Positions 1-41,708 of a stretch of 41,708 nucleotides of DNA are shown here, in pieces. The position numbers were made by a program, and so were the translations under genes. Origin of the DNA: a virus. The stretch spans positions 1 to 41,708 of IMG/VR virus record IMGVR_UViG_3300009702_000044. The stretch is one strand, 5' to 3'. The notes under the pieces are model-generated. The model was not told the origin of the DNA. It saw only the letters and a list, made by a program, of their open reading frames with translations, and did no database searches. The stretch's first letter is position 1, and every line of letters starts with the position of its first letter.

Positions 1-123
1 CTGGATGACGAAATGCGCGAGGCTGTTGAAAATGCGCTGCGCCCACTATTGGATCGCCGTCTTGATCCTGGCCGTCCGGTAAAGCCTCACCGTAGCGGTG
101 GCGGTCATTGGGTTGGCGGCTAA
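1..123 (+). CDS. C-terminal end of an unidentified protein (cut by window start)
   Basis: An open frame runs from the first base to a TAA at 121-123 and gives the last 40 residues of a protein. The tail is basic and glycine-rich, ending in RSGGGHWVGG. I do not recognise the family. No attC-like palindrome lies between this stop and the next start (169). It therefore either shares a cassette with the DUF551-like gene or marks the edge of the array. A short GC palindrome around 131-154 follows the stop but has no T-tract, so I do not call it a terminator. Confidence 0.5.
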   Translation: MDDEMREAVENALRPLLDRRLDPGRPVKPHRSGGGHWVGG

Positions 124-168: not shown

Positions 169-480
169 ATGAGCGACGGAACACCAGGTGATGGCGCACC
201 TGAACAAAAGCGCGAAAATAGCCGGGTCGGAATTGACCCACTTGTTATGTGGCGGCCTATTGAAACGGCGCCGAAAGACGGTACGAAGATTTTGCTGGCA
301 AAGATCGCTGAGATTAAAGCGGCTCCCGATTTTGGGTTTGAGGGCGAACCGCCCCAAGTATGGTGGCGCTGCCAAGGATGGTGGTCTGACAAATGGAATA
401 AGTGGTTTGATGGTGTTGAGCCGAGTGGCCTTGCTGGGCCTAATTACTGGATGCCAGTACCACCTGTACCAGCCACATAA
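169..480 (+). CDS. DUF551-like small protein
   Basis: This 103-residue protein carries the block WRPIETAPKDGTKILLA (residues 28-44), the hallmark of DUF551-type proteins, which are common in phages and in mobile gene cassettes. A tryptophan-rich segment follows (VWWRCQGWW, then WNKWF). The function of the family is unknown. I keep the ATG at 169 because GAGG lies seven bases upstream; the internal ATG at 247 (MWRPIE) has no clear ribosome site. The stop codon TAA falls inside the TAAC box of an attC-like palindrome (476-535), as is typical of integron cassette genes. Family assignment is by motif only. Confidence 0.7.
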   Translation: MSDGTPGDGAPEQKRENSRVGIDPLVMWRPIETAPKDGTKILLAKIAEIKAAPDFGFEGEPPQVWWRCQGWWSDKWNKWFDGVEPSGLAGPNYWMPVPPVPAT

Positions 481-535
481 CGTCTGCTCATAAATTGCGA
501 GCGGAGCGAAGTCAATTTTGATGGCGTTGTTATGC
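476..535 (+). repeat. attC-like site 1
   Basis: A 60-bp imperfect palindrome starts with ATAAC at the stop of the preceding gene and ends with GTTATGC. The outer boxes are ACATAAC and GTTATGC. The inner arms (around TCATAAATTG and TCAATTTTGA) pair with small bulges, the layout of R''-L''-L'-R' in integron attC sites. The right box departs from the classical GTTRRRY consensus at one base. The next gene starts 12 bases further on. The call is by structure only; no integron integrase is present in the window. Confidence 0.6.
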
Positions 536-547
536 GAGGGAACTTAA

Positions 548-802
548 ATGAGTATACGAAAATTTAATTTAGCACGAGGCGGACAGGTAACTAAGTGCCC
601 TCAATGTGGAAATGACATTACTTTTATCGCTCACTCTGAGCAAGTAGCCGAAGATTCTTGTGATATATGGATTGAGTGCGAATGCGGGTACGACCCGACT
701 TATGGAAAATGCGGCCATCGTGTTGAGGATGTGTGGGGTGGTCTTGATTTAGCGACGATTTCATTAGCTCTTCAAGTATGGAGTGAAGAGATTGTCGCAT
801 AA
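548..802 (+). CDS. Small zinc-ribbon-type protein (cassette gene)
   Basis: This 84-residue protein has CPQCG near residues 17-21 and a second pair of cysteines in ECECGYD plus YGKCGH. The arrangement suggests one zinc ribbon, followed by an acidic/aliphatic tail (DLATISLALQVWSEEIVA). GAGGGAA sits just before the ATG at 548 and supports the start. The gene is flanked on both sides by attC-like palindromes and its stop overlaps the TAAC of the next one. No named family recognised; a nucleic-acid or protein-binding role is only inferred from the cysteines. Confidence 0.6.
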   Translation: MSIRKFNLARGGQVTKCPQCGNDITFIAHSEQVAEDSCDIWIECECGYDPTYGKCGHRVEDVWGGLDLATISLALQVWSEEIVA

Positions 803-859
803 CGAAAGAGTTAAGTGGCCGAGCGTAAGCGAGGTCGCACCTTAAACGCCTTGTTATAC
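797..859 (+). repeat. attC-like site 2
   Basis: This site runs from GCATAAC (797-803, overlapping the preceding stop) to GTTATAC (853-859). The inner arms GTTAAGTG and CACCTTAAAC pair with one extra base on one side, which resembles the extrahelical base typical of attC. The segment CGCCTTGTTATAC is close to the simple-site pattern seen in many environmental cassettes. This is one of the two best-formed members of the array. Confidence 0.65.
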
Positions 860-878
860 ACAAGGCTCAATCGGAGAT

Positions 879-1067
879 ATGAAAATGAAAGATGCCGTAT
901 TGCTTGAATTAGCAGAAAGATGGGAACGTGAAGCCGTAACTCCTGATAACCAAGATGGATCGCCAGAAGCAGAACGTGAGAATGCGATTGATCAAGGTAA
1001 CAGAGGAGCAAAGCGAGAATGTGCCGACACTTTGCGGACATTGGTGGATATGCTTGGTGGCGCATAA
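879..1067 (+). CDS. Small hypothetical protein (cassette gene)
   Basis: This 62-residue, strongly charged, probably helical protein contains LLELAERWEREA near the N-terminus and RECADTLRTLVDMLGG at the C-terminus. Similar short proteins are common in phages and environmental bacteria, but their function is unknown. GGAG lies just upstream of two possible starts (ATG 879 and ATG 885); 885 has the more usual spacing, 879 is the longer choice. The stop overlaps a GCATAAC box. I cannot assign a role. Confidence 0.55.
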   Translation: MKMKDAVLLELAERWEREAVTPDNQDGSPEAERENAIDQGNRGAKRECADTLRTLVDMLGGA

Positions 1068-1105
1068 CGATAAAGGTAAGCGGCAGCCAAAAGCCCCCGT
1101 TAATT
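1062..1105 (+). repeat. Degenerate attC-like site 3
   Basis: GCATAAC at the preceding stop is followed by a short imperfect stem (TAAGCGG against CCCGTTA) and a GTTAATT box. At 44 bp it is shorter than the other sites and its right box is atypical, so it may be a decayed or unrelated hairpin. It sits in the position expected for an attC between two cassette genes. Confidence 0.35.
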
Positions 1106-1127
1106 TAAACTAAAGAGGATAAATATT

Positions 1128-1346
1128 ATGAAAAACTTAAACAAAACTGCGTTGATTTTGGCTGTCAGCTTGACCGCCTTGTTAGTTTCTGGTTGTGATT
1201 ATGTGCCGAGAGAAAAGTTTAATGTGAAGACAGAAGACGGAAAAGTTTTAACATTTGCTTGCCCAGTTCTTGACCTTGAGCGCTCACCTTTTACATATTT
1301 TTATTACGGAGATTGCGTAGTCACAAAAGTTACCGAAGGAAACTAA
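1128..1346 (+). CDS. Small predicted lipoprotein (cassette gene)
   Basis: The 72-residue product begins MKNLNKTALILAVSLTALLVSGC, a lysine-containing start, a hydrophobic core and a lipobox (LVSGC, modified Cys at residue 23). It should therefore be exported and lipid-anchored. The mature part is about 50 residues with two more cysteines (FACPV and GDCVV) that could form a disulfide. AGAGGAT precedes the ATG at good spacing. Secreted and lipoprotein products are frequent in integron cassettes. No homologous family recognised. Confidence 0.65.
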   Translation: MKNLNKTALILAVSLTALLVSGCDYVPREKFNVKTEDGKVLTFACPVLDLERSPFTYFYYGDCVVTKVTEGN

Positions 1347-1401
1347 CGACTTAGCTAAATGGCGGCGCTTTTTGCCGTCCGATTTGAGCGCCTTGTTAGG
1401 C
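1341..1401 (+). repeat. attC-like site 4
   Basis: This is the clearest palindrome of the array. AACTAAC (1341-1347) at the preceding stop and GTTAGGC (1395-1401) form the outer boxes, and GTTAGGC matches the GTTRRRY consensus exactly. The inner arms pair as GCTAAAT-GG-CGGC against the complement of GCCGTCCGATTTGAGC, with extra bases on one side only, as in real attC hairpins. The loop is short (GCTTTTT). Confidence 0.7.
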
Positions 1402-1415
1402 GCGGGAGGTGAAAA

Positions 1416-1709
1416 ATGTACGAATGCGAATGCCCATATTGCGGTAAATCAATGGATGACCCGGATGATTGTTATGAGCCGGATGTAACTTACGAACATG
1501 AATGCCCTCACTGCGAGAAAAGTTTTGTGTTTACGGTGGACTATATTCGCACCTACAGCGAGAAAAAAGCAGCCTGCCTAAACGGGGCAGAGCATGAATA
1601 TAAACCGACTAGCACTTACCCAAAGCAATATACGAAAATGCGGTGCAAATATTGTGATGATGTAAGGCCGTGCAACGAGGAAGAAATGGCGCAGGTATTG
1701 AGCGCCTAA
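1416..1709 (+). CDS. Small protein with several CxxC pairs (cassette gene)
   Basis: The 97-residue product has CECPYCGK, ECPHCEK and MRCKYCDD, enough cysteines for one or two zinc ribbons. GGGAGGTG directly upstream supports the ATG at 1416. It begins 14 bases after the GTTAGGC box of attC-like site 4. It ends in GCCTAAC, which looks like the start of another attC, but no palindrome follows. Instead the sequence passes into an element shared with the right end of the window. Function unknown. Confidence 0.6.
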   Translation: MYECECPYCGKSMDDPDDCYEPDVTYEHECPHCEKSFVFTVDYIRTYSEKKAACLNGAEHEYKPTSTYPKQYTKMRCKYCDDVRPCNEEEMAQVLSA

Positions 1710-1738
1710 CAGTGGGGTATACACATCTCGCAAGGTAG
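1707..1738 (+). repeat. 32-bp intergenic element, copy L
   Basis: This 32-base segment begins at a stop codon (TAACAGTGG...) and ends in the ribosome-site-like AAGGTAG. It matches 29 of 32 bases with the minus strand of 41558-41589. In both places it lies between a stop codon and the start of the next gene. It joins the cassette array to ORF 1753-2055 and suggests that this side belongs to the same genome as the right end. Confidence 0.65.
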
Positions 1739-2115: not shown

Positions 2116-2137
2116 TCGATTCCGGCCCTCGGTACCA
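2116..2137 (+). other. Predicted attachment core: 3' end of a tRNA-Leu-like gene
   Basis: The 22 bases read as the T-loop, T-stem 3' strand, acceptor 3' strand, discriminator and CCA of a tRNA, ending CCCTCGGTACCA. Leu tRNAs that end CCTCGGCACCA are the closest I recall. No 5' half (expected near 2050, pairing with CCTCGGT) is present upstream. A tyrosine integrase starts 155 bases downstream. This is the classic layout of a phage att core. The missing tRNA 5' half on the left points to attP, or to the distal junction, rather than the tRNA-bearing junction. Confidence 0.65.
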
Positions 2138-2292: not shown

Positions 2293-3267
2293 ATGGCCAG
2301 CTATCGGAAGAACGGAGACCACTGGGAGGCGCAGATCAAGCGCAGGGGCGTGAGACGTTCCAGGAGCTTCGAGACAAAGGCGCAGGCCGTCAAGTGGGCA
2401 ACCATAACAGAAGCCGAGATCATGGCAGAGCGGCTGGGAGAGGTGCCGAATAAACCGTTTTCAGACCTTCTGGAGCGGTACTCGGAATCGGTGTCGGTAC
2501 ACAAGCGATCAAAGAAATGGGAACAGAACAGGATCGTGTATCTGTGCACCGACGATCTGGCCAAGGTACTGTTACCGAACATCCAGCCCGTCGATTTTGC
2601 CAACTGGCGAGACCGGCGTTTGCGGGAGGTGTCTGCTGCCACGATCCTGCGAGACTGGAACCTGATGAACGCGGCGATCAATACCGCCATCAAGGAATGG
2701 AAGTGGCTCACCCAGAATCCGTTACAATCCGTCTCCCGTCCGGCCAAGCCCAACCCCCGGACCAGACGGATCAGCGACGAAGAGGTGGATCGGCTATTAC
2801 TGGCCCTCGGGTACGATTATGACTCGCCACCGGAAACGGTCACGGCCAGGGTAGGTGCCGCCATGCTCTTTGCCATTGAGACTGCCATGCGTATCGGGGA
2901 AATCTGTGCATTGACACAGGAAAACGTTTTCGAGAAACACGTCCACCTACCGAAGACGAAAAACGGGTTTTCGCGTGATGTGCCATTATCCAAGGAAGCG
3001 CGACGTATCCTTGATCAGCTTCCACCGGCAGGCAATGTGTTCAATCTCACCACAAGCCAGGCCGATGCGCTCTTCAGGAAGGCAAAGAGTCGAGCCCTGC
3101 TTACAGACCTGCATCTCCACGACACCCGGCGAGAGGCGTTGACCAGGCTATCCAAGAAACTCGACGTGATGGCCCTCGCAAAAATATCCGGCCACCGGGA
3201 TCTGCGCATATTGCAGTCGGTTTACTACGCGCCAACGATCAGTGATCTTGCGGACCGATTGGATTAG
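2293..3267 (+). CDS. int: Tyrosine recombinase (phage integrase)
   Basis: A 324-residue site-specific recombinase that would integrate and excise the phage at the tRNA-Leu-like core. The N-terminal region (MASYRKNGDHWEAQIKRRG) resembles an arm-binding domain and residues about 60-160 a SAM-like core-binding domain. The catalytic residues are visible: R in AMRIGEICAL (about 199), HxxR in LHDTRRE (about 277), H in ISGHRDLR (about 302) and the Tyr nucleophile in QSVYYAP (about 311). I chose the ATG at 2293, preceded by GAGGACGG. A longer frame to 2062 would cross the att core and the terminator and is not credible. It is on the opposite strand from the late genes. Confidence 0.9.
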   Translation: MASYRKNGDHWEAQIKRRGVRRSRSFETKAQAVKWATITEAEIMAERLGEVPNKPFSDLLERYSESVSVHKRSKKWEQNRIVYLCTDDLAKVLLPNIQPVDFANWRDRRLREVSAATILRDWNLMNAAINTAIKEWKWLTQNPLQSVSRPAKPNPRTRRISDEEVDRLLLALGYDYDSPPETVTARVGAAMLFAIETAMRIGEICALTQENVFEKHVHLPKTKNGFSRDVPLSKEARRILDQLPPAGNVFNLTTSQADALFRKAKSRALLTDLHLHDTRREALTRLSKKLDVMALAKISGHRDLRILQSVYYAPTISDLADRLD

Positions 3268-5116: not shown

Positions 5117-5311
5117 ATGAGCCATTACGCACCGATATTCACAGTTGCCGCTGTCTTTATTGCATGGTCACTACTTGGCAAGGATTTGCAGAGAGATATA
5201 AGACTCTATTTCTTTGCACTGCTCATCGTCGGCCTGGTGATCAGTACCACTTATTCACTCATCACCACCGGTCATATTCCAGACACAGCAACTTTTAGTG
5301 AATATCCATAA
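5117..5311 (+). CDS. Small two-helix membrane protein
   Basis: The 64-residue product has two hydrophobic stretches (FTVAAVFIAWSLLG and LYFFALLIVGLVISTTYSLI). Its ATG overlaps the TGA of a seven-codon ORF (5098-5121, starting after GGAGGCG) in an ATGA junction. Translation may therefore be coupled to that leader, since no ribosome site sits directly before 5117. It converges on the giant gene and overlaps its last 17 bases. With the preceding small peptide it may form a two-gene membrane unit. Function unknown. Confidence 0.5.
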   Translation: MSHYAPIFTVAAVFIAWSLLGKDLQRDIRLYFFALLIVGLVISTTYSLITTGHIPDTATFSEYP

Positions 5312-8300
5312 CTCGCTCGGCCAGCGCGTTCTTCTTCTCAGTCAGCACATCCAATTTTCTACGCTTCGCATCAGGATTCATCAAACGACTATTCTCTATC
5401 TGCCGAATCTTCGCATTGATTCTCGACAGACGCCGCTTGATAAACCCTGCGCGCTTGTGTTCTCTACGCAAACCAGGGTGAGCAGCCATGAGTTGTTTGG
5501 CACCCACCTTATCGCCATTTTTCAGCTTGTTTCTGTAACTGGCATACGCTTCTTCGATTTCCCTCGATTGCTCATAGAAGCGCGTGAGGTAGCGAGTATT
5601 CCTTGCTGGCAACGTCTCGGCGAAATTACCCACTAGAAAGGTATCCTTCAATTTTCGAGATGCTCGTGGCGCACGGTCTAGCATAGGTTTGGTAATCTCG
5701 TCCGCTGCGGTAACGGCGGCCATTCCCAGCCAGCCAAAATAGGAACGTACGAGGAAATCGATCTGCACAGGAGACAACCCAGTAAGGTCGCCGGCTTGAC
5801 CCAGGAGTTTGGCCGCTTCACTGGTGCGCGGCGTGAACCGGTCGGGCTTCATCAGCCGCTCCATGCCCATTGATTCGATAGGCCGCCCGGTGAAACTGTC
5901 CTGATTGGCATACACGTCGATCCAGGGCTTGATCGCCTGCGGTATGGGGTTCATGGCGAACGTCTGGGACACGGCAAATTGCAGCCGATCATAGAACCGT
6001 TTAGCCGTCATCTCATCAGAGGCAAATACCTCAGCGCCACGTTCTGCTAGGGTAGCGACCGCGCCGATCTCGAAGGGTTTCGGGATGCGATAGGCGACAC
6101 CGTTGATTTTGAACCACCAATAATTATCTCGGTCCCAGTCTTCCCGTGCTTTCCAATCATCATCGTCTTGATAAGCCAGCATCAATGCGATTGATGCTAA
6201 TGCGGTGGCACCAACCACAGCGCCCATGCGTTTTGGATTCTCTTTCGCAGACCGTCCGAGTTTGTAGATACCCTGTGCGCGGGCATTCATAAATGGCACC
6301 GTCTGGACCAGGAAACGCACAGCACCGAACGTCCCACCCATGCTGAAATCCATCATATCTCGCGCGGCATAGGCAGCTTTGGCATGCCCTTCTTGCTGCA
6401 ATAACTGATCATACAGCGCCGCCCGGTTCACGCCCTCAGAGATATCACCGAGATTGTTGTACCAGTCGAGTGTCTTCTGCATCATGTCCTTGATCTTCTC
6501 CGGCGTATCCACAATCGTATTCACATCCACGCCGGCATTAATCAACTTGTCGATGTGGCTTGAACGATTGCCATCCAACATGGTACCGAAACGGATCAGG
6601 CCGCCAGAGGCCAACAGACTGGCATACAGCTGGCCCTTCTTATTGCGCATGATCTTGGCACCATCCGCCACATTCTTCAGCGGGTTGTACGATATCTCTG
6701 TTTGGCCAACCGCGGTCAGTGTGTCCCTGATCAGGTTGCGGATCTTGAATGCGGGATTCGCGGTCACGCCAATGGTCAATGCGCGCTTGAAGGCGCCCAT
6801 CATTTTCATGGCCCGGCCACCGAAACCACTAAACTCCAGCGCAGTAATCGCGCTCAGTACCAACGGGTCTTCCACGGAGTAGAAAATCTTACCGTGCATT
6901 CTGACCTCGGCGGTACCGTCCGACACCTTCTCCACACCATCCTCAATATATTTTTGACCTTCAGGAATCATCTGGTTGTATTCGCCCAGGTACCACACAG
7001 CATTTTTCTGATCAGCTTCAAGACGTGTCGCAACGCCAGCGCGTTCGGCAGCCTTCAGTGAGGCCTCAGCTCCACGGTTCTTTGCGGAAGCAGTAATCAG
7101 ATGTGACCAGTTCATCAGCACATTAGCCAACAAGTCTTGGTGTAGCTTTTCTTTACCGCCTTTGAGCTGTTTGAAAGCATACTGACGGACAAGGCCACCA
7201 CCCTTGCCGATGTTCGGCCCGGAATAACCATCCTCCAGCGCCCGGTAGAACGGCACATAAAACTCCTTCTCCCAGGTCGCGCGTGACTCGCCATCGATAA
7301 TGCCAGATTGTTCAGCGAGATCGAGCACCTGCTTACTGGCGGCATTGTATTCTTTGAGCGCCGTCGCATAGACCGTTCCGCGGTTCTGGCCGTCAGGCAT
7401 CTTTCCGTCAGACAAACCCTTCAGCACCTTGATATCGGTATCACCGAACAGGTTTTCCCGGTTATCGGCCGAGAGCTGTTCAGCCCGGTTTGCAGCCAAC
7501 CACCACATAAAGCGATGCTGCTCGCCCTGGAGTTTCTGCAGCGTCTCGATAACACCGGTGCCATGTGCATCGGAATCAGTAACGCCATCGATCAGTCGCA
7601 GATTACCGAACGTCATCAGTGCCTCCAGCGCCCCCTCAGAGCCTTTCGATAGGCGGTCAAGAATGTAAGCATGTTCGTCCAGCGCCTTGATCGGTGCGAA
7701 TTGGTCAACAACGCCCTGCACCATCTTCATTGTGAAATTTTCACGGATGGCAGCAATATGCTCACGCATCGTCTTCTTATCGACAATGCCGCCCACGTTG
7801 CGTAGCGCCTGCTCCTGCTCTGCATTCAGGTTGCCGAACTCATGCTGGTGCTGTTGGGCCTTCTTGGCAGACTTCTTCTGCTTGACGGGTCTTGTCGGGC
7901 GGGTCTTGGCTTCGGTGTCCGGCGCATTCTCGGTCCAGGGATCTACCTGCTCATTGTCGCGGTCGGTGGAAAACCTCGGTGACTGATTCTTCCGCGCACG
8001 CACCTGGCTTTCCTTGGCCGTTTGCACATAACGTCCAGACTTTGCAATCAGGGCTTCCAGCTCAGACGTGGAAAACGACAATGAGAAACCCAGCTTGCGC
8101 AGGAATTTACGCACGGCGGCGATAACTCGTTTCATCAACGGGGTACGAATGCCCTGCTCTGCTATCACGGCAATAATTTCAGATGCTTCTTCATTGGCGT
8201 CCAATTTTCCACGGCGTTCATTAATAATGGACGCAGCATCATTTACAGCTTTGTCGCCAGCGTCCTTCAAAAACTGAACAGACTTCAGGATGCCATCGAA

Positions 8301-11300
8301 CTCTGCGCCAAGCATATCCTCCATGCCCATGTGGCCAGTGACCTCATGCGCCAGAATTCGGCGTGCATGTGCGGCTGATTTGATGTTCTCGGCCACCAGG
8401 TAAACGGCATCGTTCTGTGCATAATAGGCACCGGCGACATTGCCCACCTCTTCGGCGGCGCTACGGATATCATCAGGAAGATCGCTCACCTTCTGGACGA
8501 CGTTAACGCGCTTCTGGTAGGCGGTTGAAAGTTTCAGCACCTGGGTAGCGATTGCTTTGCGTACCTCAGAGACAGAAAACCCGCCAGCGGCGGGGTTGTC
8601 GTTCTGTGTGAAGGTGTTGTTATCGGGAGGCGTATGGTCGGCAGAGAATAGAACCTTCTTCGCCTTATCGGTGCCGACTTCAGATTTATCGATAACGACC
8701 ATGCGCGCATTTACGCTGGTGTTCACTGGCAGATTAGGATCCTGGAACGAGCCTTCGGGTAGTTTTTCTTCTGATCCGCCGACATCATCAAGCCAGTTAC
8801 GGAATGCTTTGGCCTTCTTGTCGTTGCCAAAAAACACACCTTCGCCGACAATAGCCACAAGCCGGCCGTCTGGCTTCAATAGATCATAAGCATGTAGCAG
8901 ATGTTTTGCGTCTCTTCGATCAGAGAACGGTGGGTTCATTATGATCCGGTCGTATTTCTTATCGTCATACTCCATGAAATCACTACCAACAACATTGTAC
9001 CCTTTGGCCTCAAGCAGCTCACGGCGTTCGCCAGACAACTCAATCACATCGGGTTCTACGCCGGTCTCGCGGATACGGTCGGCAATGTGACCCATGCCAG
9101 CAGACGGCTCCAGTACGTCCATACCTTCTTTGATGTCGGCAATGTCAATCGCTTCATCGGCAACGGGTTCTGCCGTTGGGAAGAAGTCGAGACCATCTTT
9201 CTTGCGGCCGATCATGGCGCGTTCCATCTGTTTGATCTTGTCGGCTTCTTTCGGTACCTCACGAAGACCCACAAACTCGCGCAACATGGCCCGGAACTCT
9301 GACGGCGTTTCGATACCCATCGATGACAACCGGGTGCGTTTTTCGTGTGCGCTCTCGAACTGCCAGGGCACGTCCAGTTTATGCGTGCGGCGGGCCTTCC
9401 CTATCAGGGAGTCAATCAGGTCTGGCGACAGGGTAATACGTTTGTCGTTGTCGCCATCCCACACGCCACGTTTCTGCGCCTCTGCCGGGCTGAGAATGAT
9501 CAGGTTCTCGCCACGCTTAAACGGCAGTACAATGGCTTCGCCGCGGAAACCGGAGACAGCAATAGCCTTTTCCGCCTGCGCTTTCGTCTTGAATGCGGCA
9601 ATCTCACCATCCTTCTTGCGGAAACTGTTGACTTCATTCAGGTGTTCTTTCGCAAACTTCAGATAGGCCTTAGAAACATCGTCCGCAACCTTCATAATGC
9701 GCTGCCCGATTTTCTTCATGCCATCAACTTCGAGCGCCTGTCGTCCGAGACGCGCTAAATCTGATCGATAGGCCGTGTAATTCGGGAATTGCGCATAGTC
9801 TGCCGTCTCGGTATCGATCGGCTCGCCTTTGTGCTTCTCGTAATCGCGGTAGTTCGGATACCTCTCTTTGAGCTGGTCATATTGAGCCGTATTCAGGAAA
9901 CCGGTAATCATTTCAACCTGCGCCTTTGTCCTTACCTGATCGAGATACTTGGTCTCACCGGCCTCGATCTTTTGGGCGATATTGCGCATGGTCACCGCAA
10001 TGGCGCGCTGACTCTCTGCCTGCGCTTCTGCACGCGCTGCCATACCAGCACGACGCGACGTATTGGTTTTACGGTCACGGTTGGCCAGTTCATCGGCCTT
10101 CGCTTCCAGTTTGTCGGCCATTTCTGTCAGGCGTTCAACGGCTGATTGGCTACGGTCATCCTCGTACTCATTACGACGGGCCTTGACGACTTCCTGGGCA
10201 TCACCCTTGTCGCCGGCCATCAGTTTCATAAAGGCCTCGGCTTTCTCCATATCCGGGAACTGATAACCCCAATCAGTTTTCCAGCGCCGGGCCTGCATCG
10301 TATTCACATAATTGCCGCCCATGCGTTTTGCGGCAGACAGCAGGGTTTTGTAGCTGTCGCTGTCGACACGCTCATCAGGCTGAACAATCCACAATGGCGT
10401 TTGGAATTTAGTGTGCATGCCTTCGATGATCTTGGCACCTGTCGTCTCGGCGGCGACACGAACCTCTGTACGCTGTGCTGTTTTTGATTCCTTGCGGGCG
10501 CTACGGTTCTGCTCTGCGACAAGAGCATCATAAGCGACGCGCTGTTCTGGTTTCAGCATCATAAATGCGTCACGGAATGTCGCACCATCACCAAGCTCTT
10601 TTGCTTTGGCGTTTATCAGTCCACGGTAATCATCGATGGTCTTCGGATCTTCAAGGCCTCTCTCGCGTTGCGCGCGTTCTTCTTTGCGCGATTTTTCGGA
10701 TTCAGCAATCCTGTCAGCATAAGCTCTCAGTTTTTCTTCTGTGACGCTTTCAACCTTTTCACGCATTGCATCGATCATGTTTTGGATATGATCACCGCCA
10801 ACTTTTGGCGAATACGACATCATGCCGCTACCATCAACACTCGGCCATGCGTAATCTCGTAGCATATCGGTGTAGAGTGACGCTACTACACTATCCTTTT
10901 TCTCGCCTTTGTAGCGGTGCGCGGTCATGGCATCCATGCGGCCAAGCAGTGTGGCTTTAGTTTCCTTAGCCAGCTCAGCGAGTACGGCTTCACGATTGGC
11001 AGCAAGCTCTTTGAATCCGTTACGGTACCGCTCCAGCGTGAGACTACCGTTGCGCATAGAATTAACGATAGATTCGTGTGACCCCCAGAGCGTCTTTTTC
11101 TTTTCGCTAACGTCTTTCGCGGTCGTTTCCGGTTTTTCTTCTTGCTTTTCAACACCTTCTTTTTTCGCCGCAACCGGAACATCAGCCTTTTTCGTTGCCG
11201 AATTCTTTTTCTTGGCAACTTTGGGTGGAACATATTGCTTTTGCTCGGGCTTGGCTGCACGATCTTCCGGTTTTTCTGCGACAAGCGGCTTGGTAATCTG

Positions 11301-14300
11301 CTTCGGAACAGGCTGAACGAAGTCAGGATCGAACAGGTAATATTCGGCGGAATCCTTATCAGCCTGGCTAGGCTTGTCTTTGTTCGCCTCAAACTGAGCC
11401 AGATTAAAGTCATCACCACGAGAGCGGGCTTCATCGATAGCATTCTGCATCAACCATTGATCGATACGTTTAACGCTATTTATAGACTTTCTGCTGGTTT
11501 TCAGGTCAAACTTTGGGAACGGCGTTGTTTCGCGGCCGGTAGAGGTAAGTACCACTTCGCCGGAGGCCATTTTTTCACCAACCTTACCCTGCTTTGGCCC
11601 CTTGGTAACATCCTCAATATCAGTCTGCTTAGACTTGTCGCTAAATAGATCGCCCGCACCTTCGTGCATGGGTGGCGCATTACGCTCTTTGGCCTTGCGG
11701 GCCTCTTTCTTATCGTGGATGGCCTGTTTGGTTTCGTCCTGGCCAAACATATCGGTTTGACCTTTGGCCTTTTTCTTTAATGCTTCCTGTTTTGGAAATT
11801 TAGGCTTGGCTTTCTTTTTTAGCGCTTCTTGCTTGGGGTATTTTTTGGCAGGCTTTCCTGTCTTACCTTCTTGGTACTTAGCCTCAGCCGCGCCAAGTTT
11901 ATCCATTAATGGGCCCGCCTCATCAACAGGCACAAACTCACTATTGATTGCAGATAATTCGCCGCGAATCTTGTCGATAGAATCAACGGTGGTGTCGCTT
12001 AATGCGCCGGCATCATTATAATTAGTGATCTGGTACGAGCCTGGCTTGCGTGTCGATGGATGAACAACTGAATAAATACTGCCATGTTTGATAACAGGCA
12101 GGTTCCCGGCGTCGATCCGGTCTTTGATTTCCTGAATAAAGGCTTTGCTGGCCTTGTCTGTAGCGGCAGACATAGCCTCTAAATCACGTTGTTTGTATGC
12201 CTCTTCGTGATCCTTTTTGGCGGCGGCTATTTCTGTCTCATTATTGGCATCGGCCTTTTGTGTCTCAGATTTTGCCTTTTGTGAGACGCTAGGTGGCCCC
12301 TGCTCGGTCCAGCCCTCGGCGCGCAGGCCGGCTATCATATCCTCATAACGGGCCTTGTTTTTAGCTTCGCTGGCCTTGTGGTTCGCGTTGAACTGCTCTA
12401 GCGCTGCGGTTATTTCTTCTTCGGTGGGTTTTTCGGCTTGTACGTCGGTTTCACTCCCGACTCCCGATCCTTCTTGCGCATCATCAGGGCGTACTCGCGC
12501 CCGCTCTGTGGTTTGTCCTGACTTTTCGGCTTGTCGTCCATCGTGAATTACCTCGTAGAGAAGTCGTGCGACTTCGATATCGGAAATCGGTCGTTCAAGT
12601 ATATACTCTGTGAGCGATTCGTCATATTTATCCGCTTCGTCGGCCAGCTCGCGGATGGCCCGCGCCTCGGCAGATGCTTCCGGCGTGTGGAATTCTTCAT
12701 TCATCCGGTCACCGTACCGCTCAGAGTCGGCCTGATAATCTTCTACCGGCGCAAACCCGCGTAGCGCGCGGCGCAGCATATCGTGAGCCGGCTTCAGGTC
12801 ATCCACACGGGCGGCACGGTCTCCGCTGACCTCATCCAACAGTGACCGTACCACGCGTGCCTCACGCACACCGAGGCGTTGACCATCGAGCGATTTACGC
12901 ACTGCCGCCTGCACCTGTTCTGGCGATAAACCCTCGCGGGCAAGGCCAGCGCCTGCCTCAAAGTCGGGGTTGTACTGGTTGCTGATCACAGGATGGCCGG
13001 ACAGGGATTCTCCCATCTTGTCCAGCAGGTCATTCGCAGAATAACCCTCGGCTGGCAGGTAACCATATTGCGACAGTTTCTCTGCCATGCCGTCGAAACT
13101 CTCACCGTTTGTGCGGAATGGATTGGCTTTACCTACCTTGTCGGTGAAGTGTTCGGGATCAATACCCTGTGCCTTGGCTTCTTCTTTGCTAATACCGCCC
13201 AGTTTGGTTACAGCAGTCATCAGGTCATCGACTTCTGGATCCACTTTGTCAGTACGCGGGCGAACAGGTACGGCCACCTTGGCCTGCAGCTCTTCCCGCA
13301 CAGGAACGCGCGCAATGCGTGGATCATCCAGACCTTCTGGCGTGACGATATCCTTTGTCTGTTGCTTCAATTCCTCCAGGCGCGTGTCCTGCGCGACACG
13401 CCGATCGGCCTCGCGGTCGGTCTCCACGGTCGCATCAAGGGCGGGAACTTCCTTTTTCTTGGCGCGTTCTACATAAGGAATGCCGCCAAAATCGACTCCA
13501 TTCTCATAACTCTGCACGTCCTCAACGGGAGCAACCGTCAAACCGTTAGCCTGTGGTCCATAGGCCTCGACCGCGGCGGTCAGTGGCCCTTTCTTGGTCA
13601 GACCAGCAGCGGCCGGGGAAGTGAAATCGACGTGATACGGCTTTTCGGCCTCGGCTTCTCCACGGGCACGATCAACGGTCTCAGATTGTAATTCAGGCCG
13701 GGCATTCCCGGCCGGATCAACCACAAAGGCATCCGGTGACGTTGCAGCAGGGGGGAGTGCTTCCGGGCCTGACAGGCCCTCGGTGAGCCCTTCTGTGTTA
13801 ATGGGTTCGCCAGAGGACGTGGTTTGTTGCGGCGCCTCTTCGCCACCGGTAAATGGATGTGCACCAGCAGCCAGCGCACCGCCAACGGCAACACCGACCG
13901 CGCCATCGTAGACAACCTGACCCCAATCAATACCGGCCATTGCGTCTTTCAGGCTCATATTTTCCAGATGGCGCTTGTCATAGGCCTGCTCGAGCACGGA
14001 AGTAATCATTTCCTGTGCGCCCTGGCCGATCGTCGAATCAAACAACCGCTTTGCCAATGGGGTGCCGCGCTTCAATATCGCGCCCATCGGGATTGTTTCT
14101 GGGATTATCTCGGCCAGCACCGTGAATCGGGTCGCCAGCATGGCCTCGCCGGGGCTCATACCTTTATTAAGGTAATCATTGTAGGCCTGCCCGCCAACCT
14201 GTGCACCCATGACCGCAAGGCCGGTGGCGGCGCTCTTAGTGGCAACGCCAGCAGCGATAGACGGCACCATATCGATAATTCCGCGGGCTGCATCAATGCC

Positions 14301-14762
14301 GAACTGTTGTATCGCGCCCTGAACGTGTGGCTGATTCTCGGCCAAGTCTTTTTGGGCCTCGTCTGACATCTTCTGACCTGCGGCAGATGCCGATTTCTTG
14401 AGTTTGCCGAGCGGTGAATCTGTCGGCGTCATTTTATCCAACAGATAACGCGGCATGCCCTGAACAATGTCGGCGCCAGCCTTCAGCGTGTCGAAGAATC
14501 CCGGCTCTTCGCCGCGCGCAGAATCACGGGCCATCTGACTGACTGCGCCCTCACCAGGGATGTGATCATCGGCAGCGGCCCGGGTGAGCCCTCCTGCCAT
14601 GACTTTGAACCGGTCAGGCGTATTCTCGACAGCCTTGCCCAGTCCTTCGACAAAGCTATCTGTCTCGGGAATATCGTCAAACGATACCGCAGGGATGTCG
14701 TCGAAACTCAGAGTCTCTTTTTTATTGCTGGCATCGGGGATGTCGTTGAAATTGAGATCCAT
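5295..14762 (-). CDS. Giant polyvalent virion protein with methyltransferase and zincin-like motifs
   Basis: A single open frame of 3155 residues. The N-terminus has three F(N/D)DIP motifs (residues 3-33), a feature I associate with large phage polyvalent proteins. Glycine/alanine-rich hydrophobic segments follow near 160-185 and 283-304. A Lys-rich low-complexity region near 970-1000 contains the repeat PKQEALKKKAK twice. A class I methyltransferase lies near 1875-1990: LEPSAGMGHIADRI, then NPPF at about 1943, the signature of N6-adenine or N4-cytosine DNA methylases. A HEVTGH motif at about 2141 resembles the HExxGH zincin-like motif of such proteins. The C-terminal 550 residues (NPAFKIRNLIRDTL, hydrophobic ALASIALMLAY) resemble LPD38. 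Inference: an ejected protein that protects or modifies incoming DNA. The start overlaps the upstream gene as TAATG. Confidence 0.85.
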   Translation of the reverse strand: MDLNFNDIPDASNKKETLSFDDIPAVSFDDIPETDSFVEGLGKAVENTPDRFKVMAGGLTRAAADDHIPGEGAVSQMARDSARGEEPGFFDTLKAGADIVQGMPRYLLDKMTPTDSPLGKLKKSASAAGQKMSDEAQKDLAENQPHVQGAIQQFGIDAARGIIDMVPSIAAGVATKSAATGLAVMGAQVGGQAYNDYLNKGMSPGEAMLATRFTVLAEIIPETIPMGAILKRGTPLAKRLFDSTIGQGAQEMITSVLEQAYDKRHLENMSLKDAMAGIDWGQVVYDGAVGVAVGGALAAGAHPFTGGEEAPQQTTSSGEPINTEGLTEGLSGPEALPPAATSPDAFVVDPAGNARPELQSETVDRARGEAEAEKPYHVDFTSPAAAGLTKKGPLTAAVEAYGPQANGLTVAPVEDVQSYENGVDFGGIPYVERAKKKEVPALDATVETDREADRRVAQDTRLEELKQQTKDIVTPEGLDDPRIARVPVREELQAKVAVPVRPRTDKVDPEVDDLMTAVTKLGGISKEEAKAQGIDPEHFTDKVGKANPFRTNGESFDGMAEKLSQYGYLPAEGYSANDLLDKMGESLSGHPVISNQYNPDFEAGAGLAREGLSPEQVQAAVRKSLDGQRLGVREARVVRSLLDEVSGDRAARVDDLKPAHDMLRRALRGFAPVEDYQADSERYGDRMNEEFHTPEASAEARAIRELADEADKYDESLTEYILERPISDIEVARLLYEVIHDGRQAEKSGQTTERARVRPDDAQEGSGVGSETDVQAEKPTEEEITAALEQFNANHKASEAKNKARYEDMIAGLRAEGWTEQGPPSVSQKAKSETQKADANNETEIAAAKKDHEEAYKQRDLEAMSAATDKASKAFIQEIKDRIDAGNLPVIKHGSIYSVVHPSTRKPGSYQITNYNDAGALSDTTVDSIDKIRGELSAINSEFVPVDEAGPLMDKLGAAEAKYQEGKTGKPAKKYPKQEALKKKAKPKFPKQEALKKKAKGQTDMFGQDETKQAIHDKKEARKAKERNAPPMHEGAGDLFSDKSKQTDIEDVTKGPKQGKVGEKMASGEVVLTSTGRETTPFPKFDLKTSRKSINSVKRIDQWLMQNAIDEARSRGDDFNLAQFEANKDKPSQADKDSAEYYLFDPDFVQPVPKQITKPLVAEKPEDRAAKPEQKQYVPPKVAKKKNSATKKADVPVAAKKEGVEKQEEKPETTAKDVSEKKKTLWGSHESIVNSMRNGSLTLERYRNGFKELAANREAVLAELAKETKATLLGRMDAMTAHRYKGEKKDSVVASLYTDMLRDYAWPSVDGSGMMSYSPKVGGDHIQNMIDAMREKVESVTEEKLRAYADRIAESEKSRKEERAQRERGLEDPKTIDDYRGLINAKAKELGDGATFRDAFMMLKPEQRVAYDALVAEQNRSARKESKTAQRTEVRVAAETTGAKIIEGMHTKFQTPLWIVQPDERVDSDSYKTLLSAAKRMGGNYVNTMQARRWKTDWGYQFPDMEKAEAFMKLMAGDKGDAQEVVKARRNEYEDDRSQSAVERLTEMADKLEAKADELANRDRKTNTSRRAGMAARAEAQAESQRAIAVTMRNIAQKIEAGETKYLDQVRTKAQVEMITGFLNTAQYDQLKERYPNYRDYEKHKGEPIDTETADYAQFPNYTAYRSDLARLGRQALEVDGMKKIGQRIMKVADDVSKAYLKFAKEHLNEVNSFRKKDGEIAAFKTKAQAEKAIAVSGFRGEAIVLPFKRGENLIILSPAEAQKRGVWDGDNDKRITLSPDLIDSLIGKARRTHKLDVPWQFESAHEKRTRLSSMGIETPSEFRAMLREFVGLREVPKEADKIKQMERAMIGRKKDGLDFFPTAEPVADEAIDIADIKEGMDVLEPSAGMGHIADRIRETGVEPDVIELSGERRELLEAKGYNVVGSDFMEYDDKKYDRIIMNPPFSDRRDAKHLLHAYDLLKPDGRLVAIVGEGVFFGNDKKAKAFRNWLDDVGGSEEKLPEGSFQDPNLPVNTSVNARMVVIDKSEVGTDKAKKVLFSADHTPPDNNTFTQNDNPAAGGFSVSEVRKAIATQVLKLSTAYQKRVNVVQKVSDLPDDIRSAAEEVGNVAGAYYAQNDAVYLVAENIKSAAHARRILAHEVTGHMGMEDMLGAEFDGILKSVQFLKDAGDKAVNDAASIINERRGKLDANEEASEIIAVIAEQGIRTPLMKRVIAAVRKFLRKLGFSLSFSTSELEALIAKSGRYVQTAKESQVRARKNQSPRFSTDRDNEQVDPWTENAPDTEAKTRPTRPVKQKKSAKKAQQHQHEFGNLNAEQEQALRNVGGIVDKKTMREHIAAIRENFTMKMVQGVVDQFAPIKALDEHAYILDRLSKGSEGALEALMTFGNLRLIDGVTDSDAHGTGVIETLQKLQGEQHRFMWWLAANRAEQLSADNRENLFGDTDIKVLKGLSDGKMPDGQNRGTVYATALKEYNAASKQVLDLAEQSGIIDGESRATWEKEFYVPFYRALEDGYSGPNIGKGGGLVRQYAFKQLKGGKEKLHQDLLANVLMNWSHLITASAKNRGAEASLKAAERAGVATRLEADQKNAVWYLGEYNQMIPEGQKYIEDGVEKVSDGTAEVRMHGKIFYSVEDPLVLSAITALEFSGFGGRAMKMMGAFKRALTIGVTANPAFKIRNLIRDTLTAVGQTEISYNPLKNVADGAKIMRNKKGQLYASLLASGGLIRFGTMLDGNRSSHIDKLINAGVDVNTIVDTPEKIKDMMQKTLDWYNNLGDISEGVNRAALYDQLLQQEGHAKAAYAARDMMDFSMGGTFGAVRFLVQTVPFMNARAQGIYKLGRSAKENPKRMGAVVGATALASIALMLAYQDDDDWKAREDWDRDNYWWFKINGVAYRIPKPFEIGAVATLAERGAEVFASDEMTAKRFYDRLQFAVSQTFAMNPIPQAIKPWIDVYANQDSFTGRPIESMGMERLMKPDRFTPRTSEAAKLLGQAGDLTGLSPVQIDFLVRSYFGWLGMAAVTAADEITKPMLDRAPRASRKLKDTFLVGNFAETLPARNTRYLTRFYEQSREIEEAYASYRNKLKNGDKVGAKQLMAAHPGLRREHKRAGFIKRRLSRINAKIRQIENSRLMNPDAKRRKLDVLTEKKNALAERVMDIH

Positions 14763-39236: not shown

Positions 39237-39803
39237 TTAGCTCAGTAGTTTGATGTCCACGATAATATGGGTACGGGGCTCAACGCCGCGATTAACAACA
39301 GAATGAACCTGTTTGTTGTCAATCCACCAGACTTGGCCAGGTTTCATGTATTCAACCTTGTCACCGCATTGAAACATTACATCTTCAGCATCCACGACAA
39401 TGTGGAACCGGTCATAATGGAGCGGCATATCTCCCTCGTCAGAGTGGGAATCGATAGCTCCACCTGGCGCCAGTCGGGCGATCACCACCCGGCCGAGCCG
39501 TTCCCCGGCCACGGCGCTCATCAGACGCATTACCTGGCTGCGGACGGTTTGGAATCTCGCATAAGCCTCTGTGTCTTCCGCTTCCAGCGAGTTATGGAAC
39601 ACATCCCGAATCTTCTCAGGATCCTCCATATCAAACACACCGGGCGGCATGCGCAGATAAATCGCTTGTGTGTCTTTGTGCGGACTGCCCGGATAATCTT
39701 CACGCAGAGACCATTGACCGAACAACTCGGCATTGCGCTCAATATCGAGCCGCGTAGACACAAGAGCGCCCGCATCCATATCGTACAGACCCACTAAACT
39801 CAT
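39237..39803 (-). CDS. Aspartyl/asparaginyl beta-hydroxylase-like 2OG-Fe(II) oxygenase
   Basis: The 188-residue protein has the double-stranded beta-helix core of AspH-type oxygenases. The first iron-ligand region is LAPGGAIDSHSDEGDMPLHYDRFHIVVD, where H-x-D-type ligands precede HYDRFHI. The distal part is VEYMKPGQVWWIDNKQVHSVVNRGVEPRTHIIVD, with the second His and the Arg for 2-oxoglutarate. It could hydroxylate a phage or host protein or peptide. I use the ATG at 39803 with GGGGAGG upstream; a longer frame to 39854 runs into a terminator hairpin. It stands alone between terminators. Confidence 0.8.
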   Translation of the reverse strand: MSLVGLYDMDAGALVSTRLDIERNAELFGQWSLREDYPGSPHKDTQAIYLRMPPGVFDMEDPEKIRDVFHNSLEAEDTEAYARFQTVRSQVMRLMSAVAGERLGRVVIARLAPGGAIDSHSDEGDMPLHYDRFHIVVDAEDVMFQCGDKVEYMKPGQVWWIDNKQVHSVVNRGVEPRTHIIVDIKLLS

Positions 39804-39827
39804 ATCATCCTCCCCAGGAAATAGGCA

Positions 39828-39863
39828 TAAAAAAGCCCCGGAACCTTTCGGCACCAGGGCTTT
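39828..39863 (-). terminator. Strong terminator upstream of the oxygenase gene
   Basis: The hairpin AAAGCCC..GG / CC..GGGCTTT with loop CTTTCGGCA is followed by T-rich sequence on the minus strand. It closes the transcript coming from the regulator-side genes. The 150 bases to its right (39864-40012) are A/T-rich and hold no gene; a leftward promoter could lie there but I cannot point to clear boxes. Confidence 0.8.
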
Positions 39864-41557: not shown

Positions 41558-41589
41558 CTACCTTGCGAGGTGTGTATATACCACTGTTA
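41558..41589 (-). repeat. 32-bp intergenic element, copy R
   Basis: On the minus strand this segment reads TAACAGTGG, then TATACACAC and CTCGCAAGGTAG after two variable bases. It matches 29 of 32 bases of plus-strand 1707-1738. It spans the stop codon of the upstream gene and the ribosome site of the DUF1064-like gene. Confidence 0.7.
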
Positions 41590-41708
41590 GCTGCCCTTGC
41601 CAGCGGTCGCGGCAATCCCAAGCAGCATATCTCTAAATTCAGGCGGAGTAGCATTACGAATCCGCGTCTTATCCTTGCCGCCTATCATCGCCATCATGCC
41701 TATACGCC
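41587..41708 (-). CDS. C-terminal end of an unidentified protein (cut by window end)
   Basis: The last 40 codons of an open frame on the minus strand (RIGMMAMIGGKDKTRIRNATPPEFRDMLLGIAATAGKGS) end in TAA inside the 32-bp element. The tail is basic and glycine-containing; family not recognisable. Since it directly precedes the DUF1064-like gene it may belong to the replication/recombination region expected to the right. Confidence 0.5.
   Translation of the reverse strand, partial: RIGMMAMIGGKDKTRIRNATPPEFRDMLLGIAATAGKGS

Follow-up and report, generated by a model that had tools for sequence, protein, structure and literature searches.

The left arm of a temperate phage with a P22-type portal very probably carries a cluster of attC sites and gene cassettes of a phage-adapted integron. 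The window, that is, the whole stretch of DNA that was analysed, corresponds to a linear, 41,708-bp virus record (IMG/VR IMGVR_UViG_3300009702_000044) with a P22-type portal, a capsid and an Sf6-type terminase gene. Integrons are viewed as bacterial gene-capture devices that are only occasionally carried by phages. Carriage of attC sites by phages has already been published (Qi et al., 2023; PMC9892861); what appears to be new is the systematic inversion of the genes relative to attC and the association with integrases of viral clades. The explanation is supported by clustered minus-only model matches, stops at -5 at all four sites, core-exact sharing of a cassette with the phage G150, polarity counts and an attP. 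Against it stand the absence of an integron integrase from the window, the weakness of attC1 (17.8 bits), unremarkable folds, relatives of ORF2 and ORF5 outside arrays and the lack of recombination assay data.

The attC sites were identified with a covariance model made from 26 attC sites of Nitrosomonadaceae integrons and of Shewanella and Tetrasphaera phages; the model is home-made and was only briefly calibrated, and its E-values are rough. The five best matches in the whole window all fall inside 475-1401. They form a cluster of four sites in 927 bp, each of which scores best on the minus strand:

475-535, minus strand: attC1, 17.8 bits, E 0.05, the weakest of the four
797-859, minus strand: attC2, 29.6 bits, E 8e-5 (17.9 bits on the plus strand)
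1062-1187, minus strand: attC3, 30.0 bits, E 7e-5, long (126 nt) and covering the start of ORF4
1341-1401, minus strand: attC4, 34.0 bits, E 7e-6, the top match of the window

The genes of the array and its right-hand neighbours are as follows:

1-123, plus strand: ORF0, a gene present only as its 3' end, on the distal side of the array
169-480, plus strand: ORF1, 103 aa, with a WRPIETAPKDG motif and a TAA stop inside the attC1 core
548-802, plus strand: ORF2, cassette gene, 84 aa
879-1067, plus strand: ORF3, cassette gene of 62 aa whose stop lies at -5 in the R' box
1128-1346, plus strand: ORF4, cassette gene for a short lipoprotein with the lipobox LLVSGC
1416-1709, plus strand: ORF5, cassette gene for a zinc-ribbon-like protein, 97 aa
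1753-2055, plus strand: ORF6, 100 aa, no family match, in the position occupied by the integron integrase in other phages
2293-3267, plus strand: phage tyrosine integrase (phrog_1)

The sites carry R and L boxes and score as attC chiefly on one strand. Matches above about 25 bits in roughly 1 Mb of other loci lay in recognised integron or phage arrays, in a phage with two copies (L075) and, as single sites, in two relatives of the window phage (L008 and L043). An Rfam search of the window gave no family match, and to our knowledge Rfam holds no model for attC. Since the single-strand fold energy alone is unexceptional compared with shuffled controls (z from +0.8 to -2.0), it is the conserved boxes, the clustering and the evidence for exchange that carry the case for attC. 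On these grounds the array is a genuine cluster of attC sites in a cassette array; its recombination activity is inferred, with no assay data. Two of the usual requirements for a CALIN, an attC cluster without integrase, are met, namely at least two attC sites close together and no integron integrase alongside, and the requirement for a complete integron, an integrase gene by attI, is not. As a separate observation, attC3 overlaps the start codon and the lipoprotein signal peptide of ORF4, so that an arm of its hairpin is coding.

An earlier note, made without database searches, had proposed a cassette array with attC palindromes beside the attachment site of a temperate phage. This held, as did its description of small same-strand ORFs (ORF1 to ORF5) and its sites at 797-859 and 1341-1401, which the model coordinates match exactly. 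The palindrome lengths of 44-63 bp that it gave held only in part, the third site being an attC of 126 nt over the ORF4 start and not one of 44 bp. Its statement that each ORF is followed by a palindrome fails for ORF5, which is followed by a 33-bp element (1706-1738).

Movement of a whole cassette between phages could be demonstrated by BLAST among the collected loci:

1343-1710, plus strand: complete exchanged cassette, attC4 and ORF5 up to the TAA core

This segment is 82% identical to positions 5978-6344 of locus L417, a part of the IMG/VR record 3300042196_000135 (phage G150), which has tail genes. In the alignment the homology begins and ends at CTAAC, the predicted core TAA/C, and the flanks are unrelated on both sides. 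The segment is a cassette exchanged between phages with core-exact borders; among the cassettes of the window this is shown for ORF5 only. A second shared cassette (L317 and L332, 94% identical) also breaks at the cores in the alignment, a third (L332 and L417, 84% identical) has less sharp alignment edges, and further sharing was listed by BLAST for L107 and L318 and for L383 and L416. Because the breakpoints of shared cassettes sit at cores, the cassette unit is C-attC-gene-TAA: attC comes first, the gene second, and the stop codon coincides exactly with the recombination core TAA/C. At the protein level, ORF5 has a counterpart of 85% identity in G150, and ORF0 shares 62% identity over 29 aa with the distal-edge gene of the G150 array (L436:8136-8339, E 3e-10 in a two-sequence comparison); a full-length integron integrase lies at the proximal edge of that array. 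Next to this integrase lies what looks like an entire cassette, attC together with its gene, in inverted orientation (L436 10578-10910).

The palindromes could be ordinary intergenic hairpins or weak terminators that resemble attC. They do follow stop codons, and their fold energies are close to those of shuffled controls. Against this stand attC scores that are mainly one-stranded, the presence of R and L boxes and, above all, the fact that the palindromes mark exchange breakpoints between otherwise unrelated sequences; core-exact breakpoints already contradict the hairpin reading, which is all but excluded. The two outcomes that would have refuted the earlier note, a lack of attC model matches and a lack of cassette shuffling, were both avoided, with four sites found and the ORF5 cassette present in another phage contig with core-exact borders. 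It had also correctly seen no integron integrase, as the TIGR02249 search of the record confirmed, and it had missed that ORF5 is itself a cassette, that the 33-bp repeat stands in the position of attI and that the genes are inverted relative to attC, the rule in the sampled phage contigs.

This inversion is evident at each of the four sites, where the genes lie on the plus strand and the canonical attC strand is the minus strand, so that the window cassettes fail the usual requirement of bacterial integrons for gene and attC on one strand. True integrons have a gene on the attC strand that ends at +5 in R''. The window shows the mirror image: at 4/4 sites the stop of the opposite-strand gene falls at -5 in R'. 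Among contigs chosen as reversed, the exact -5 offset was found at 57/100 sites, compared with the canonical +5 at 5/100. As these contigs had been picked by majority polarity, the count shows the sharpness of the geometry and not its frequency.

Polarity was surveyed in attC-bearing IMG/VR contigs drawn by a DNA pattern and an integrase profile, and in a host set comprising Nitrosomonadaceae integrons together with those of Shewanella M16-3 and Vibrio p16. A codon score decided the coding strand, ORF length alone being too noisy in GC-rich contigs, and the lists of attC sites were moved into the polarity scripts by hand. The host set gave 37 canonical and 2 reversed calls (2/39 reversed), as against 34 canonical and 162 reversed calls in viral contigs (162/196 reversed). 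Viral contigs with at least two calls comprised 38 reversed, 6 canonical and 4 mixed contigs, or about 35, 5 and 3 after removal of evident duplicates of one record (L415/L481, L417/L447, L459/L460, L407/L480 and L286/L348). The rule is not absolute: at least one exception, the phage TJE1 among the canonical viral contigs, is real. Most of 20 proteins from reversed contigs matched phage families, including portal, terminase, head protease, tape measure and RecE. The viral sample is not random, since attC patterns and a single integrase profile were used to draw it, and host flanks may be present in some contigs; within it, the reversed layout is the rule in phage contigs and not in host integrons.

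No integron integrase was found by the TIGR02249 search of the window record. Because the record is a linear fragment, the presence of such an integrase elsewhere in the phage genome cannot be checked. The same profile scored above its cut-off in five records with reversed arrays (G131, G144, G150, G156 and G157), two of which (G156 and G157) are related to the window phage by their portal, and also in a single canonical record; among relatives by the P22-type portal, L043 and L025 have both attC sites and integron integrases. A full-length integron integrase downstream of the array is encoded by many of the phages with reversed arrays. When the integrase was set on the plus strand in 80 loci found with the integrase profile, nearly all attC sites lay on the minus strand, most of them upstream of the integrase. 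The classical relation of attC to integrase is therefore kept, and it is the genes that are turned round. The viral integrases fall into clades of 45 (support 0.995), 26 (0.868) and 6 (0.595) members and a few singletons. The largest clade includes an integrase from a Sulfuricella genome (L107), where the order is tRNA-Leu, phage integrase, a small gene, integron integrase on minus, attC on plus and genes on minus; an element that contains a complete reversed integron has integrated here. The element occupies 5980-12219 of NSJJ01000017, a Sulfuricella denitrificans MAG. Separately, a xerD-annotated gene in Virus Rctr41k (L446, KX853513, 4680-5678) is 42% identical to a phage integron integrase, in a locus where the model gave no attC match.

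Alternatively, the array could have been captured from a bacterial integron with genes reversed by chance, without any phage-specific system. This would fit the absence of an integron integrase from the window, and the capture of bacterial integrons by phages is known (Vibrio p16 and Shewanella M16-3; PMC9892861). The difference in reversed calls between host integrons (2/39) and viral contigs (162/196) and the virus-dominated integrase clades that accompany reversed arrays speak against capture, which we regard as unlikely. A bolder reading is likely in our judgement: tailed phages would own an integron system with integrases of phage lineage, a phage attI and a pool of inverted-gene cassettes, in which the stop often lies exactly at the crossover point and the genes, as part of a phage operon, point toward the integrase.

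Whether the array is phage DNA at all could be addressed through the phage integrase. Profile search found relatives in bacterial genomes, the nearest being 59% identical and from Nitrosomonas, and an intact tRNA-Leu or tRNA-Arg is mostly present 165-230 bp upstream of their int genes; the integrase protein as a lone query in IMG/VR gave no match. ARAGORN detected no tRNA in the window, which has at the corresponding place only a tRNA end:

2116-2137, plus strand: attP core, the 22-nt 3' end of a tRNA-Leu, with the spacing to int of the intact tRNA in integrated relatives

As only the 3' end and no intact tRNA is present, this is an attP, and the DNA to its left is phage DNA. Four further integrase relatives (L103, L108, L113 and L128) have only tRNA-3'-end-like sequence upstream of int and are possibly attP forms like the window.

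The competing view, in which the array would belong to a bacterial chromosomal integron beside an integrated prophage, can draw on the Nitrosomonadaceae, home of the closest integrase relatives, which have chromosomal integrons in 24/125 genomes. It is very unlikely given an attP with the tRNA 3' end only, as against the intact tRNA in most integrated relatives checked, the relatives of ORF0 and of the ORF5 cassette in a phage array, and a gene polarity that matches phage arrays and not bacterial integrons. The remaining requirement for a phage CALIN, an array in phage DNA, is satisfied by this attP together with the relatives that ORF0 and the ORF5 cassette have in phages. Insertion of a prophage into an attC site, with the 33-bp copies near both ends forming a long inverted repeat, was considered and rejected: both copies follow stop codons of phage genes, and it is the tRNA-Leu end at 2116-2137 that forms the real attP.

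The 33-bp repeat and the gene that ends at its second copy are located as follows:

1706-1738, plus strand: 33-bp element CTAACAGTGGGGTATACACATCTCGCAAGGTAG, candidate attI-like site, directly behind the TAA core of the terminal cassette ORF5
41558-41590, minus strand: second copy of the element, directly behind the TAA core of a stop codon
41587-41708, minus strand: gR, a truncated gene that ends at the second copy (sequence inspection)

Two copies were found where shuffling predicts none by chance. The sequence was not found elsewhere in the collected loci, and a near-exact pattern had no match in IMG/VR. The position is that of the attI-like leaders of integrase-bearing phages, which the element resembles in sequence without being identical. 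About 26 integrase loci have a leader like TAACTTAAATTCnnCGACA within 260 bp upstream of the integrase; this pattern allows two mismatches and has a background of about one per 42 kb, both strands counted, in other loci. An attI-like role is inferred from the position of the element. A substantial alternative is that it serves as a phage operator or promoter of the ordinary kind, or is some other repeat, and abuts a cassette by coincidence: it includes a short palindrome (ACCT..AGGT) together with the stretch TATACA, both copies stand upstream of a start codon, and no relative is present in the collected loci nor, near-exact, in IMG/VR. Against the operator reading, it begins exactly at the TAA core in the position of attI-like leaders, some of which, in other integrase loci, also begin with TAACAG. 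From sequence alone, gR may be the terminal cassette of a second array, a possibility only.

In the proposed explanation, the attC polarity is the one expected with an integron integrase that stands, or once stood, to the right, by the attI-like site, and the genes, inverted relative to attC, would all read toward attI. An integron integrase from the missing part of the genome, from a co-resident phage or from the host would recombine the folded attC sites, an inferred activity that is untested, and the newest cassette would be added next to the 33-bp element. Because the genes read toward this element, they would probably be expressed as part of a phage operon from an upstream phage promoter and not from the integron Pc, which is likewise inferred. 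Recombination would then use the strand that is non-template for the genes and is displaced by transcription; that such displacement is the reason for the inversion is possible and remains speculation. The cassettes are inferred to be accessory phage genes, and several cassettes in this analysis encode DNA methyltransferases.

Like the published phage CALINs (TJE1, P12002L, PH101 and MW202573; PMC9892861), the window combines an attC array and small genes with the lack of an integron integrase. Unlike the window, TJE1 is canonical by the polarity test, and core-exact exchange between phages is shown in the present work. The attC sites of virulent phages were active with IntI1 in that published study. 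In MW202573 (L419, 2069-3738), which has a P22-like portal, our own model places attC opposite to the genes. Phages that have captured complete integrons (Vibrio phage p16, P1 L-II and Shewanella M16-3; PMC9892861) likewise have integron parts in their genomes, but the arrays of M16-3 and p16 are canonical by the polarity test and their integrases host-type, whereas reversed arrays accompany virus-dominated integrase clades. Bacterial integrons (Nitrosomonadaceae chromosomal integrons, the Vibrio superintegron and class 1) share with the reversed arrays the attC architecture, the polarity of attC to integrase, an attI at the integrase end and the gene cassettes, and differ in that the phage genes are inverted and read toward the integrase, for which reason a classical Pc promoter could not drive them. 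A term search of the text of PMC9892861 found no statement of a polarity rule for gene and attC, nor was one found elsewhere in the literature searched; preprints and most subscription papers lay outside that search, and a prior description is not excluded.

Should both the inverted layout and the virus-dominated clades of integrases be borne out, integrons would be the phages' own engine for swapping accessory genes, and polarity would separate a phage cassette pool from the Pc-driven bacterial pool. Under the bolder reading, cassettes would circulate between phages and fall silent once captured by a Pc-driven bacterial integron. Annotation pipelines could flag the reversed layout by comparing attC strand and gene strand.

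The genes of the left arm have few known relatives. No Pfam or NCBIfam family was found for ORF1 to ORF6, PHROG gave a weak match for ORF5 only, and BLASTN of the left arm against phages and plasmids gave no match. Relatives of ORF2 (38-47% identical) occur on plasmids of Aeromonas, Shewanella, Alteromonas and Comamonas and in one viral contig, and ORF5 has a 46% identical relative in a Nitrosomonadaceae genome contig without attC sites. These two genes are not exclusive to cassettes, since relatives exist outside arrays without attC sites. The portal relatives have genomes of about 60 kb, of which the window record has about two thirds the length; about a third of the phage genome is missing, either right of 41708 or left of 1. 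Elsewhere in the window, an ORF of 3155 aa (5295-14762, minus strand) is very large for a podovirus-type phage, and a gene resembling aspartyl/asparaginyl beta-hydroxylases (39237-39854) adjoins the terminase genes.
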